Assembly: GCA_025774205.1 (NCBI GenBank)
Contig: JALGWK010000127.1
Location: 1 to 5,582 of the forward strand
Origin: a bacterium
Lineage (GTDB): Bacteria; Blakebacterota; Blakebacteria; Blakebacterales; Blakebacteraceae
Direction of reading: 5' to 3'
DNA length: 5,582 nucleotides
Made by a program: the position numbers and the translations under genes. This document shows, one piece after another, positions 1 through 5,582 of this stretch. The notes below the pieces were generated by a model. That model did no database searches and was not told the origin of the DNA. It saw only the letters and a program-made list of their open reading frames with translations. The first letter of the stretch is position 1, and the number at the start of each line of letters is the position of its first letter.

Positions 1-1
1 G

Positions 2-703
2 GGCGGATATGACGCCGACCTGATCCTCGACCCGAACCCCGGCACCGACCCGCTCCGGTACGAGGCGCGGCCGGTCGACACGGAATTGCTCCTGGGGGCC
101 GGGTACGCGCTGCTGCGACGCGAGTTCCGGAATCGGATCCGTACCGGGAAAACGATCTCGCTCGAGGACCATGTCATCCTTATCACCCTCGGAGGGGGAG
201 GCGAGGCAGACGGTCTGGCGGCAATGGTGCTGCGCGCGCTCGATCGTATTGTGCCGGGAGGGATCGGTCGCGCTATCGTGGTCGGAGGAGGCGTGAGCGG
301 ATTCAGCGCGGAATTGACGGAAATGGCGGCCAGGATGCCTGTCGAGATCGAACTGAGAACTCATGTGGAAGATATCAGCTCCCTGATGGATCGGGCGGAT
401 ATTGTCATTTCAGGTGGCGGCAGCACCTGCTGGGAACTGGCGTTCATGGGGGTCCCGGGTCTGACCATCATCCGGGCGGAGAACCAGCGTCTGATTGCCG
501 AGGAGCTGGATGCTGCCGGGATTCTTCTGAACCTGGGTGGAGAGGCCGGGCTGAGTGAGGGGAAGGTCGCTACCGCGATCGATGCCCTCCTGGCCTCCCC
601 GGACCGTCGGGGTGAAATGAGTCGGAAGGGACAGGCCCTGGTAGACGGACAGGGAGCATCGCGAGCCATTGAGGCGATACGCGGGGTGATGGAGAGAGGA
701 TGA
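2..703 (+). CDS. pseG: PseG, UDP-2,4-diacetamido-2,4,6-trideoxy-beta-L-altropyranose hydrolase (5' partial)
   Basis: C-terminal 233 residues of a PseG-type GT-B-fold hydrolase. The family removes UDP from the 4-N-acylated altrosamine nucleotide in the cytoplasm, giving the free sugar used by PseI. The frame is open to the left edge, so the true start and the N-terminal domain with the family's catalytic His lie outside. What remains begins with the DLILDPNPG region, then LLGAGYALLRREFR (bases 86-127), a glycine-rich ITLGGGGE stretch that opens the nucleotide-binding domain, the hallmark SGGGSTCWE (bases 410-436) and AENQ (bases 476-487). Order and spacing match PseG rather than NeuC/LegG epimerases or MurG. 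The TTG at 86 is not the start, because family-conserved residues precede it. The stop lies one base before the next ATG, so the genes are probably co-transcribed. The assignment is firm; activity cannot be judged without the N-terminus. Confidence 0.9.
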   Translation, partial: GGYDADLILDPNPGTDPLRYEARPVDTELLLGAGYALLRREFRNRIRTGKTISLEDHVILITLGGGGEADGLAAMVLRALDRIVPGGIGRAIVVGGGVSGFSAELTEMAARMPVEIELRTHVEDISSLMDRADIVISGGGSTCWELAFMGVPGLTIIRAENQRLIAEELDAAGILLNLGGEAGLSEGKVATAIDALLASPDRRGEMSRKGQALVDGQGASRAIEAIRGVMERG

Positions 704-704
704 G

Positions 705-1466
705 ATGAAGATTTTCTTCATGGGCAACAACTGGGTCGGCTGGCAGACGCTGCAGTGGCTGCGGGATCAGGACGCGGAGATCGTCGGCCTGGCGATCCAT
801 CCGGATGGCATGAGCAAGTACGGCGCGGAGATACTGGGATCGGCCGATCTGCCCGAGGAGCGGGTGTTCGACGGTTCGAACCTGGATGATCCCGGCATCA
901 TCGAACAGGTGCGGGCGCTGGCCCCCGATATGGGAGTCTCCGTCTTCCTCGGATTCATCCTCCGTCCCACCTTTCTCGATATCTTCCCCCGGGGCTGTAT
1001 CAACCTCCATCCCTCCTTTCTCCCGTATAACCGGGGGGTACACCCGAACGTGTGGAGCATCGTCGAAAGCACCCCGGCGGGGGCGACCATCCATTTCATC
1101 GACAGCGGAGTGGATACCGGAGACATCCTGGCCCGGGAGCAGGTCGAAGTGGAACCGGTCGACACCGGCCAGACACTTTACCACAAGCTCGAACAGGTCT
1201 GTGTTGATCTGTTCATACGGACGTGGCCGGCTGTCATGGATGGTACCATAGCTCCTCAACCACAGGAGTCCGGGGCGGGCACTTCACATCGTGTCAGTGA
1301 CCTGGCTCCCCTCGACCGGATCGATCTTGACCAGACCTGCACCGCTCGGGAACTCATCGATCTGATCCGGGCCAGGACATTCCCACCCTACTCAGGGGCA
1401 TACTTCGAATCGGAAGGGCGCAGGGTGCATCTTCGGCTCGAACTCGAGTACGGTGAGGAGGAATGA
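705..1466 (+). CDS. Formyltransferase family protein, probable sugar N-formyltransferase
   Basis: 253-residue protein with the N10-formyltetrahydrofolate-dependent formyltransferase fold. A Rossmann-like start (MKIFFMGNNWVGW) is followed by the catalytic core: INLHPSFLPYNRG (residues 99-111) supplies Asn100 and His102, and DSGVDTGD (133-140) supplies Asp137, the Asn/His/Asp triad of PurN, Fmt and ArnA. Residues 221-246 resemble the linker after the catalytic domain in Fmt and ArnA, but the chain ends before the OB-fold domain of Fmt (about 310 residues). The size instead fits sugar N-formyltransferases such as VioF, QdtF and WlaRD. It lies between pseG and pseI, one base after the pseG stop, with a GAGAGGA ribosome site at 694-700. 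Inferred role: formylation of the 4-amino group of the PseC product, in place of PseH acetylation. The fold is certain; the substrate is not. A role on initiator tRNA is unlikely from context and length. Confidence 0.8.
   Translation: MKIFFMGNNWVGWQTLQWLRDQDAEIVGLAIHPDGMSKYGAEILGSADLPEERVFDGSNLDDPGIIEQVRALAPDMGVSVFLGFILRPTFLDIFPRGCINLHPSFLPYNRGVHPNVWSIVESTPAGATIHFIDSGVDTGDILAREQVEVEPVDTGQTLYHKLEQVCVDLFIRTWPAVMDGTIAPQPQESGAGTSHRVSDLAPLDRIDLDQTCTARELIDLIRARTFPPYSGAYFESEGRRVHLRLELEYGEEE
1455..1461 (+). promoter_or_regulatory. Shine-Dalgarno site of pseI with three possible ATG starts
   Basis: GAGGAGG, near-perfect, lies inside the last codons of the formyltransferase gene. In-frame ATGs follow at 1463, 1466 and 1472, with 1, 4 and 10 bases of spacing. 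The first is too close for normal initiation. The last gives an N-terminus MKIG like that of typical PseI proteins. The real start is therefore probably 1466 or 1472. Confidence 0.7.
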
Positions 1467-2522: not shown

Positions 2523-3425
2523 ATGATCATGAGCCCTCCCCGACCAGAAACGATCTGCGCCGTGATCGTCACGCGAGATCCCGATGATGCCCTCATCGAT
2601 CGCGTCGTGAGCATCCTCAGGCAGGTGGCCGCCATCGTCATCGTCGACAACGGATCAGCGCCGGCGACGGTCAGGATGCTGGAGGGAATTCGCTCCCGGC
2701 CCGGGATTCACCTGATCCTCAACGGGGAGAATGACGGCATTGCCACGGCCCTGAACCAGGGCGTCGGAAGGGCGGGAGAACTCGGCTTCGACTGGGTCGT
2801 GCTCTTCGATCACGACAGCGAACCGGACGATGACATGGTCGTCTCCCTGGCCGCCATCTTCGACCGCTTCCCCGATCGGGAGAACCTCGCCATCATCGGC
2901 TCGAACTACTACCGTCTCGATCGGGAGCACCCCGAATTCACCTTTCCCGGCCCGGAACCGCCCTGGGTCGAGAGACGATCGGTCATCACTTCAGGCAGCC
3001 TGATACCTCTTGATCGCCACACAGAGGTCGGACCGTTCCGGGACGCCCTCTTCATAGACCACGTGGATGATGAATACTCCTTCCGGGCCCGACGGCTCGG
3101 ATTCCATGTGATCATGAGCCGAGCCCCGCTGATGAGGCACGCCATCGGTGTCCGGAATGAACACCGGGCGTTCTTCAGGACGATCGAGACCTCCAATCAC
3201 TCACCCGAGCGCCGGTACTACATGGGCCGGAACGTCGTACTGGTGGCCCGCGAGTACCTCACATCCGAGCCGGGCTGGGTGGTGGTAAAAGGGTGGAAGA
3301 TCGTGAAGTCGGTGATCCTGATCATGCTGTTCGAACGCGACCGGATGGCCAAGGTGCGGAATCTGCTCAGAGGTGTCTGGCACGGTCTCAGAGGAAGAGA
3401 GGGCCGGCTCGGAGATCTGACCTGA
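2523..3425 (+). CDS. Family 2 glycosyltransferase, rhamnosyltransferase (RfbF)-like
   Basis: 300-residue GT-A glycosyltransferase of the GT2 rhamnosyltransferase-like type (RfbF/WbbL relatives), acting at the cytoplasmic face on surface polysaccharide or glycoprotein glycans. Visible are the nucleotide-binding strand CAVIVTRDP (12-20), IVIVDNGS (38-45), GIATALNQG (72-80), the metal-binding Asp-x-Asp as DHD (96-98) in VLFDHDSEPDD, ITSGSLI (155-161) and the acceptor/base region FIDHVDDEYSFRARRLGF (177-194). Residues 252-270 are hydrophobic and may touch the membrane; the basic tail ending GLRGREGRLG is common in this family. It starts 10 bases after pseI. The ribosome site is weak (GGCCGGA, 2516-2522), so ATG 2529, with better spacing, is an equal candidate. 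An ATG at 2439 would only add out-of-frame pseI sequence. Donor unknown: family precedent is dTDP-rhamnose, while context allows CMP-Pse or a neighbouring sugar. Confidence 0.85.
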   Translation: MIMSPPRPETICAVIVTRDPDDALIDRVVSILRQVAAIVIVDNGSAPATVRMLEGIRSRPGIHLILNGENDGIATALNQGVGRAGELGFDWVVLFDHDSEPDDDMVVSLAAIFDRFPDRENLAIIGSNYYRLDREHPEFTFPGPEPPWVERRSVITSGSLIPLDRHTEVGPFRDALFIDHVDDEYSFRARRLGFHVIMSRAPLMRHAIGVRNEHRAFFRTIETSNHSPERRYYMGRNVVLVAREYLTSEPGWVVVKGWKIVKSVILIMLFERDRMAKVRNLLRGVWHGLRGREGRLGDLT

Positions 3426-3442
3426 GAGTTCAGCGAGGTCAG
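3417..3442. terminator. Inverted repeat across the two convergent stop codons, possible bidirectional terminator
   Basis: Perfect arms CTGACCT (3417-3423) and AGGTCAG (3436-3442) flank a 12-base loop. The TGA of the glycosyltransferase and the TGA of the cytidylyltransferase both overlap the arms. The convergent position suits a shared terminator, but there is no T-tract on either side and the stem is short. Intrinsic termination is thus only a guess. No better terminator is visible near either gene end. Confidence 0.35.
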
Positions 3443-4152
3443 GCGTCGCGGTTCAGTGCCAGCCAATCCTCATTCTCGCCCAGCAGGGTCAGGACCTCGT
3501 TCCAGCTGAAATCATCCCGCCTGAAATGGTCGTAGATGCGTTGAAGGAGGGCCAGATCCCCGGGGGTGTCGAGGGTCCAGCGATGGTGTGAGAGGTCGAT
3601 GTCGTTCCGCACACAGTGGATGCGGAAACCGCCCTGGTCGCGGTAGATCCAGGGTGTCACATGTTCGCGATAAAACGGCTCGGGACCCTCCTGCCAGGCT
3701 CGGCTGAGGGCCTCGATCGACATCACCTCCGTGTCGAGTCCGCGGGGAAAGGTGCGGTCGGGGACGATGTTGCTGACGTAATCGAAGGCATCGGCCTGTT
3801 CGAGATACCGTAATACGACGAGATCGATAATGGCTGGTTCGATCAGCGGACAGTCGGAAGTGATGCGAACAACCAGGTCGAGTTCGTGTTCAAGCGCGGT
3901 CTGGTAGTACCGATCGAGAACATCCGCTTCGCTCCCCCGGAAACAGGCCGTTCCGGAAGCGGCGCAGAGGTCGACCAGGGGATCGTCCCCCGGTTCAGTG
4001 GTGGTCGCCACGATAACGGTGTCCAGCGTTTCGGCTCTCCGGGTGCGGTTGACCACCCGGGTGAGGGTTGGTTCACCGGCGAGATCGGCCAGCACTTTGC
4101 CGGGGAGGCGGGAACTGCCCATCCTCGCCTGGATGATCGCGCCCCTCTTCAT
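3439..4152 (-). CDS. spsF: SpsF-type cytidylyltransferase, probable CMP-pseudaminic acid synthetase
   Basis: 237-residue nucleotidyltransferase of the SpsF family (COG1861), related to CMP-KDO and CMP-sialate synthetases. The start GAIIQARMGSSRLPGKVL (4-21) is the nucleotide-binding signature loop, with Arg10, Ser14, Arg15 and Lys19. RITSDCPLI (96-104) holds the expected metal-binding Asp100. PRGLDTEV (136-143), FYREHVTP (160-167) and RWTLDTPGDL (191-200) are the other conserved blocks of the family. Its ATG overlaps the pseC stop in an ATGA, so translation is probably coupled. The canonical enzyme of the pathway is PseF, whose N-terminus differs. No PseF is seen here, and the partnership with pseC makes CMP activation of Pse the likely role of this SpsF-type protein. 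Family membership is firm; the substrate is inferred. Another nine-carbon sugar or a different alcohol could be the true acceptor. Confidence 0.8.
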   Translation of the reverse strand: MKRGAIIQARMGSSRLPGKVLADLAGEPTLTRVVNRTRRAETLDTVIVATTTEPGDDPLVDLCAASGTACFRGSEADVLDRYYQTALEHELDLVVRITSDCPLIEPAIIDLVVLRYLEQADAFDYVSNIVPDRTFPRGLDTEVMSIEALSRAWQEGPEPFYREHVTPWIYRDQGGFRIHCVRNDIDLSHHRWTLDTPGDLALLQRIYDHFRRDDFSWNEVLTLLGENEDWLALNRDA

Positions 4153-5342
4153 CGCCTGAACGCAGCAGTGACTTTCGCGACGGCGGTGACAACATCCTCG
4201 ATATCCCGGTCGGACATTTTCGGATAGAGCGGCAGGCTGAGGATCCTTTCATACGCCTCCTCGGCGATGGGGCAGAGGCCGGGGGCCGTACCGAGGCGTT
4301 CACGGTAATAGGGGTGCAGGTGGACCGGGATGTAGTGCACGTTCACTCCTATCCCTTCGGCTCTGAGAGCCCGGAACACCTCTCCCCGATCGACCGTAAG
4401 CCGATCCAGATCGAGTCTGATGACGAAGAGATGCCAGGCGTGCTCCACCTCGGGAGAGACCGTCAACGGGTGTACCGCGTCCAGTTCCCGGAAGGCTTCG
4501 GTATAGGTCTCCGCTATCTCGCGCCGGCGCTTCAGCCAGGCTGGCAGACGGGTCAACTGGCTGGACGCGAGAGCGCTCTGGATATCCGTGAACCGGTAGT
4601 TGAACCCGAGATCGACGACCTCGTAATACCAGGTGCCCTCCCGGGCGCGCTGCTGGAAAACCGAATCGATGTTGTGGTTCCGGAACTTCTTCATGGCTTC
4701 GGCATAATCGTCCCGGTCGGTCGTTATCATCCCGCCTTCACCACCGGTGATGTGCTTCACCGGGTGGAAACTGAAGGTGCTGAGATCCGCCAGGCTCCCG
4801 GTCGGACGCCCCCTGTAGAGCGCACCGACCGAATGTGAAGCGTCATCGATGAGGATGAGGTCATGCTGGTCGCAGATGCTCCGGAATCGGTCATAATCGC
4901 AGGGATGTCCAGTGTAATCGACGGTAATGACTGCACGCGTACGGTTGGTAATCAGATTCTCGACGCTGTCCGGATCGATCAACAGGGTAGCGGGATCGAC
5001 GTCGGCGAATACGGGCGAAGCCCCCTGGTAGAGAGCGCAGTTCGCGGTGGCCGCGAACGTCATGGTCGGCACGATCACCTCATCACCTTCACCGGCGCCC
5101 GCGGCGAACATTGCGGTATGCAGGGCCGCGGTCCCGCTGCTGACGGCGATCGCATGCGGGGTTTGACAGAGAGAGGCGAACGCCTCCTCGAATCGCGCTA
5201 CCGACGGGCCGGTTGTCAGCCAGTCCGATCTGAGGACCTCAATGACGGCCTGGATATCCTCTTCGTCGATCCATTGCCGTCCATAGGGAAGGATTTCGGA
5301 CCGAACCGGTGTGCCTCCATGCAGTGCCAACTGGTCCATCAT
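4149..5342 (-). CDS. pseC: PseC, UDP-4-amino-4,6-dideoxy-N-acetyl-beta-L-altrosamine transaminase
   Basis: 397-residue PLP-dependent sugar aminotransferase of the DegT/DnrJ/EryC1 (AHBA synthase) family. PseC transfers an amino group from glutamate to C4 of the 4-keto-6-deoxy-L-altrose nucleotide made by PseB. In ATG-5342 numbering, LPYGRQWIDEEDI (18-30) and SDWLTTGP (39-46) open the fold, SSGTAAL (68-74) binds the PLP phosphate, LIDDASHS (164-171) holds the Asp167 that pairs with the PLP nitrogen, and FSFHPVKHITGGEGG (190-204) carries the Schiff-base lysine Lys196. The SFHPVK form is typical of PseC, whereas LegC-type enzymes have SFNGNK. HYIPVHLHPYYR (336-347) is the C-terminal sugar-binding region. 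Start: ATGs at 5342 and 5339 follow GGGAGG by 1 and 4 bases, so 5339 may be the one used. A GTG at 5387 would add 15 residues unlike the family. First gene of the leftward operon; its promoter should lie upstream to the right. Confidence 0.93.
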   Translation of the reverse strand: MMDQLALHGGTPVRSEILPYGRQWIDEEDIQAVIEVLRSDWLTTGPSVARFEEAFASLCQTPHAIAVSSGTAALHTAMFAAGAGEGDEVIVPTMTFAATANCALYQGASPVFADVDPATLLIDPDSVENLITNRTRAVITVDYTGHPCDYDRFRSICDQHDLILIDDASHSVGALYRGRPTGSLADLSTFSFHPVKHITGGEGGMITTDRDDYAEAMKKFRNHNIDSVFQQRAREGTWYYEVVDLGFNYRFTDIQSALASSQLTRLPAWLKRRREIAETYTEAFRELDAVHPLTVSPEVEHAWHLFVIRLDLDRLTVDRGEVFRALRAEGIGVNVHYIPVHLHPYYRERLGTAPGLCPIAEEAYERILSLPLYPKMSDRDIEDVVTAVAKVTAAFRR

Positions 5343-5343
5343 G

Positions 5344-5349
5344 CCTCCC
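5344..5349 (-). promoter_or_regulatory. Shine-Dalgarno site of pseC
   Basis: On the minus strand GGGAGG is followed by C and then two consecutive ATG codons (5342 and 5339). Spacing is 1 base to the first and 4 to the second. The site supports initiation here rather than at the upstream GTG 5387, whose own AAAGGA lies only one base away. Confidence 0.65.
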
Positions 5350-5390
5350 GCGCCTCGGTAGATTGATAGCGGTGGTGTCTCGCGCACGTC

Positions 5391-5548: not shown

Positions 5549-5582
5549 TTACTCATTTAAGGGACCCGTTCACGCACATGAC

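Follow-up and report, generated by a model that had tools for sequence, protein, structure and literature searches.

The N-acyl groups of nonulosonic acids (NulOs) alter surface recognition, and a formylated pseudaminic acid (Pse) is found in the glycan of Pseudomonas aeruginosa 1244. During Pse biosynthesis, the C4 amine is acylated by PseH (TIGR03585), a GNAT-fold enzyme with acetyl-CoA as the donor, whose product gives an [M-H]- ion at 631 (PMC7910423). The formyltransferase PseJ, named as such in its PDB entries, has been reported to formylate the product of PseC and is kin to the formylation domain of LgrA. VioF-type enzymes, for their part, act on dTDP-4-amino sugars, as the titles of PDB entries likewise state. 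The principle of Pse formylation in place of the PseH step is already known from PseJ (PDB 6ci2, 6ci4, 6ci5, and 6edk). In a literature search, PseJ was not named together with "pseudaminic," and a search on 7-N-formyl Pse found no reports. Formyltransferases with no assigned substrate have been noted in flagellin glycosylation islands (PMC5109656, PMC4875605), and a role in making N-formyl-legionaminic acid has been proposed for HrrPV6_1050, a formyltransferase of Halorubrum (PMC6137143).

The window analyzed here, a DNA stretch of 5,582 nt, is the whole of contig C388 in the MAG G000 (3.09 Mb, 527 contigs, 86% complete). It contains a gene for a sugar N-formyltransferase (FT; positions 705 to 1466, forward strand), predicted to be an N4-formylase of the PseC product, located between pseG and pseI. 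The 3' part of pseG, encoding the UDP-sugar hydrolase, occupies positions 2 to 703 (forward); its match to TIGR03590 in the NCBIfam search of the window (93.9 bits) covers part of the model because the window begins within the gene. Contig C382 from the same MAG overlaps window positions 1 to 114 exactly (114 bp), and reading through this overlap supplies the 5' end of pseG, yielding an intact PseG of 352 aa and extending the locus by 6.6 kb. On C382, a divergent GT2 gene lies 5' of pseG, and further genes upstream probably encode, by our own reading of the sequences, a large surface-polysaccharide protein, a flippase-like membrane protein, and a methyltransferase. The tight coupling of FT to both neighbors claimed in the preliminary description is borne out: the FT start codon at 705 follows the pseG stop at 703 after 1 nt, and the FT stop codon (1464 to 1466) and the pseI ATG (1463) overlap by 4 nt.

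The pseI gene (1463 to 2512, forward) encodes a Pse synthase with NeuB and SAF domains (TIGR03586, 487.9 bits; cutoff, 340). Downstream are a rhamnosyltransferase-like GT2 glycosyltransferase gene (2523 to 3425, forward, inferred start; PF00535, with TIGR01556 below its cutoff) and, convergent to it, a gene for a CMP-sugar cytidylyltransferase in the pseF role (3439 to 4152, reverse; PF02348), both of which score under the specific NCBIfam cutoffs. The GT2 is a possible transferase of the NulO or of a partner sugar. The pseC aminotransferase gene (TIGR03588, 462.9 bits; cutoff, 423.5) spans 4149 to 5387 on the reverse strand at its longest start, but its true start is more likely near 5342. 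No pseB gene was found in the G000 assembly, whereas in the sister species G001 pseB adjoins pseC. One G001 contig (L054, from 5396) carries the same pseG-FT junction and ends 43 codons into FT; a second carries accA followed by pseB-pseC-pseF, converging on GT-pseI. There, the counterpart of the PseF-like cytidylyltransferase (73% identical) is encoded directly after pseB-pseC, and the GT2 counterpart is 64% identical. Given this matching gene order, the locus is conserved in the genus, with pseB expected shortly after window position 5582.

The FT open reading frame is complete, beginning with ATG and encoding 253 aa. Its Formyl_trans_N domain (PF00551 in Pfam, E = 6e-25) is matched too strongly for the assignment to be due to chance, and N100, H102, and D137 are invariant in an alignment of 16 relatives, so that the full Asn/His/Asp formyltransferase proposed from the sequence alone is confirmed. 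The accompanying statement that FT lacks the Fmt domain holds for PF02911, which is absent, but overlooked a C-terminal N_formyltrans_C dimerization domain (PF18216, residues 199 to 249, E = 2.8e-18). In an AlphaFold model with a pLDDT of 86 and a weaker C-terminal domain, the best PDB folds, matched over the full length with TM scores of 0.81 to 0.84, are the 4-N-sugar formyltransferases 4nv1, 6v33, and VioF 4yfy. A sequence search of the PDB matched "formyltransferase PseJ" (E = 8e-28). A misplaced Fmt was considered and rejected: FT scores 107 bits against the TIGR00460 cutoff of 201.5, PF02911 is missing, and the true fmt is elsewhere, on contig C335 of G000 next to def, in a yajC-def-fmt-rsmB neighborhood (neighbor names by reading).

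FT shares with PseJ the core motifs INLHxSxLPxNxGxxPNxWS, DTGxI, and SxH, the N-H-D catalytic core, and the location inside a pse locus beside pseG and pseI; PseJ-type genes lie between pseG and pseI in loci L037, L038, and L087, where the predicted step is the same as that of FT. The two differ in that PseJ is a single-domain protein of ∼195 to 217 aa without PF18216, which is absent, for example, from the PseJ-type proteins of L037 and L085, and sequence identity is ∼30%. The VioF type (4yfv, 4nv1, 6v33, 6v2t, and 6nbp; NF005755) has the same two domains, PF00551 and PF18216, and the same overall fold as FT, but its residues differ from those of FT at S104, L106, N115, T138, L162, and H195, its signature HPGLNPYNRGW-PQVFS is absent from FT, and NF005755 gives FT 125 bits against a cutoff of 238. 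Conversely, S104, L106, N115, L162, Q187, and H195 in the active-site region are common to FT and PseJ and absent in the VioF type; the PNxWS motif is also shared by FT and PseJ. PseJ-type formyltransferases also adjoin pseI in other Firmicutes, and in many Lachnospiraceae PseI is fused to a PseJ-like formyltransferase domain in proteins of 542 to 579 aa (L069, L070, L072, L073, L075 to L078, L083, L086, and L089).

In the careful tree, where the PDB sequences are represented by aligned fragments only, PseJ groups with the formylation domain of LgrA in a clade (support, 100/99) that excludes FT; the VioF side, including haloarchaeal enzymes, forms another (96/93); and the eight rows of the window clade make up a third, which is not starred (support, 88/87, and 96 in the quick tree). 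Pairing of FT with the PDB PseJ is rejected (p-AU, 0.005). As to the sister of the window clade, its union with PseJ has a support of 46/3, and its union with the VioF side, although the clades are separate, is not rejected (p-AU, 0.47). The preliminary description had named VioF, QdtF, and Fmt for comparison but had omitted PseJ. Tree and architecture together rule out a PseJ ortholog; given the combination of a VioF-like architecture with PseJ-type residues, FT is best described as an enzyme that probably works like PseJ but is not its ortholog.

A haloarchaeal formyltransferase from Halorussus (L141), 38% identical to FT, is likewise found in a NulO locus, but this is a legionaminic acid locus and the protein belongs to the VioF side of the tree; its kinship fits the broader theme of NulO N-formylation. 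On this Halorussus plasmid (L141, 7986 to 11668), the related formyltransferase, an Fmt-like protein, and a PIG-L deacetylase are all encoded in the NulO locus. Elsewhere, two divergent ArnA/Fmt-like formyltransferase proteins are encoded near PseI in a pse locus in which no PseH was detected (L148, 10513 to 12535).

The preliminary description had noted that the window lacks a PseH-like acetyltransferase and had proposed looking for pseH in the flanking DNA. None was seen among the window genes, and none was found in C382, in the G000 genome, or in the sister species. The best TIGR03585 score in the whole G000 genome is 14.6 bits against a cutoff of 93.1, no PseH was found at E ≤ 1e-5 in G000 or G001, and the pse loci of G000 (C382 plus C388) and G001 contain no recognizable acetyltransferase. 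Because GNATs in other pse loci score about 52 to 57 bits with TIGR03585, a moderately divergent PseH would have shown if assembled; an unlinked acyltransferase could escape notice, given that the MAG is 86% complete. The presence of a formyltransferase alone is no proof of replacement because an intact PseH and a PseJ-type formyltransferase share one pse locus in G113 (L038, 9640 to 11847), whereas in G377, another member of that genus, the formyltransferase stands there alone. It is the absence of PseH here that leads to the replacement reading for FT. When PseI-bearing loci were surveyed across 386 genomes, with partly resolved results, about half of these loci showed neither PseH nor a formyltransferase with the reference sequences used.

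The position of FT is conserved across phyla. A scan of GTDB contigs identified six close relatives (54 to 60% identity) in Myxococcota, Planctomycetota, Armatimonadota, and Verrucomicrobiota; across the subfamily, identity to the window protein is 47 to 60%, and the usual order in pse loci is pseG-FT-pseI. All of the subfamily members in L061 to L066 are within pse loci, adjacent to PseG in L061, L062, L064, L065, and L066 and to PseI in L061, L063, L065, and L066; in L063, FT is placed after the cytidylyltransferase. No PseH over the cutoff was found in the genomes of L061 to L066, and no match at 1e-5 in those of L061, L065, and L066. The genomes of L062, L063, and L064 encode GNATs elsewhere with a weak PseH match, and the GNATs in or near the locus in L063 and L064 fit spermidine acetyltransferase as well as PseH or better.

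The strongest comparative evidence that FT assumes the PseH step comes from two genomes of one family. In G149, PseI is followed by a truncated PseH fragment of 113 aa (model positions 9 to 96 of 156) and then by a formyltransferase 47% identical to FT; in G286, an intact PseH-like GNAT of 168 aa comes after PseI, its score of 52.9 bits lying under the curated cutoff. Up to and including the first part of pseH, the DNA of the two loci is 70% identical across 416 bp; from there on, G149 carries the formyltransferase gene. In G149 (L034, 8500 to 9596), this gene begins exactly where pseH breaks off, after ∼100 codons, and in the related L156 pseH is intact. G149 thus looks like a natural replacement, in which a formyltransferase gene stands where the 3' half of pseH would be. 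The NeuB score of the G149 synthase is slightly above its PseI score, and because of this borderline assignment, the product in G149 may be another NulO rather than Pse.

The earlier proposal that FT substitutes for PseH is therefore supported by the lack of PseH, the pseG-FT-pseI order in other phyla, the separate fmt, and the remnant in G149. Very probably, FT is an N10-formyl-tetrahydrofolate-dependent enzyme that replaces PseH by formylating the PseC product, leading to CMP-Pse5Ac7Fo. PseB, encoded beyond the contig end, and PseC would produce UDP-4-amino-4,6-dideoxy-L-AltNAc, and FT would then, as the third step, formylate the free C4 amine, replacing the acetylation by PseH, with N10-formyl-tetrahydrofolate as the donor. 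PseG would strip UDP from the 4-formamido sugar, PseI would add three carbons from PEP, so that the C4 nitrogen becomes N7, and the PseF-like enzyme would form CMP-Pse5Ac7Fo; the adjacent GT2 may transfer the activated Pse5Ac7Fo. The fold, catalytic residues, architecture, operon position, positional conservation across phyla, and lack of a detectable pseH are read directly from the sequence; from these we infer which substrate FT uses, that its product is formylated, in what order the steps run, and that PseG and PseI accept the formylated sugar. Formyl transfer before PseG fits because the hexose C4 ends up as C7 in the nonulosonate, and the genomic evidence agrees.

Alternatively, FT might act on another nucleotide-activated amino sugar, such as dTDP-Qui4N, as a partner sugar of the glycan, with an unlinked acetyltransferase providing the PseH activity. 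The two-domain VioF-like architecture, the VioF-type best fold matches, and the grouping with the VioF type, which is not rejected, would all be compatible with such a role, but the VioF-type signature (GWFPQVFS, GNYN) is missing while PseJ-type residues are present, no dTDP-sugar genes were recognized in the 12 kb around FT, all nine subfamily loci examined (9/9) are Pse or related NulO loci, and no PseH was found in G000. Motifs and neighborhood alike thus disfavor a dTDP-sugar formyltransferase, and action on any other amino sugar appears unlikely.

Slightly less probable still is that FT works alongside an acetyltransferase gene lost from the assembly, both 7-N-acetyl and 7-N-formyl Pse being made. 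The coexistence of PseH with a PseJ-type formyltransferase in G113 and the MAG completeness of 86% leave some room for this, against which stands the lack of a recognizable acetyltransferase in the pse loci of both species or, at E ≤ 1e-5, anywhere in their genomes. A late-acting FT that modifies completed Pse or CMP-Pse, at the 7-amino group or elsewhere, is very improbable: NulOs in general are known to undergo late tailoring, but nothing would be left to acylate N4 before PseG, and both the placement of FT between pseG and pseI and the swap at the PseH remnant point to the PseH step.

In L062 (4994 to 6369), L063 (9834 to 11215), and L064 (8814 to 10199), FT and pseI adjoin genes for a PIG-L de-N-acetylase and for a further formyltransferase-like protein (PF21553); these neighbors span three phyla. 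Their gene content suggests that acetyl is exchanged for formyl at N5 too, which would give a 5,7-di-N-formyl Pse. A search of G000 and G001 for such a PIG-L-linked second formyltransferase, run without a positive control, found nothing. On balance, it seems likely that in several phyla PseH has given way to a second lineage of N7-formyltransferases, phylogenetically separate and equipped with a VioF-like dimerization domain, and that some members of this lineage (L062 to L064) could yield 5,7-di-N-formyl Pse. The separate two-domain lineage is the new part of this picture; the formylation trick itself was known from PseJ. These loci provide natural cases of an acetyl-to-formyl swap within one pathway, including a locus in which the pseH remnant is still visible. 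If this interpretation is correct, a "missing PseH" in a genome would be no sign of a broken Pse pathway, and sequence alone would suffice to predict a 7-N-formyl product where the FT subfamily is present, in phyla with little-studied Pse chemistry.
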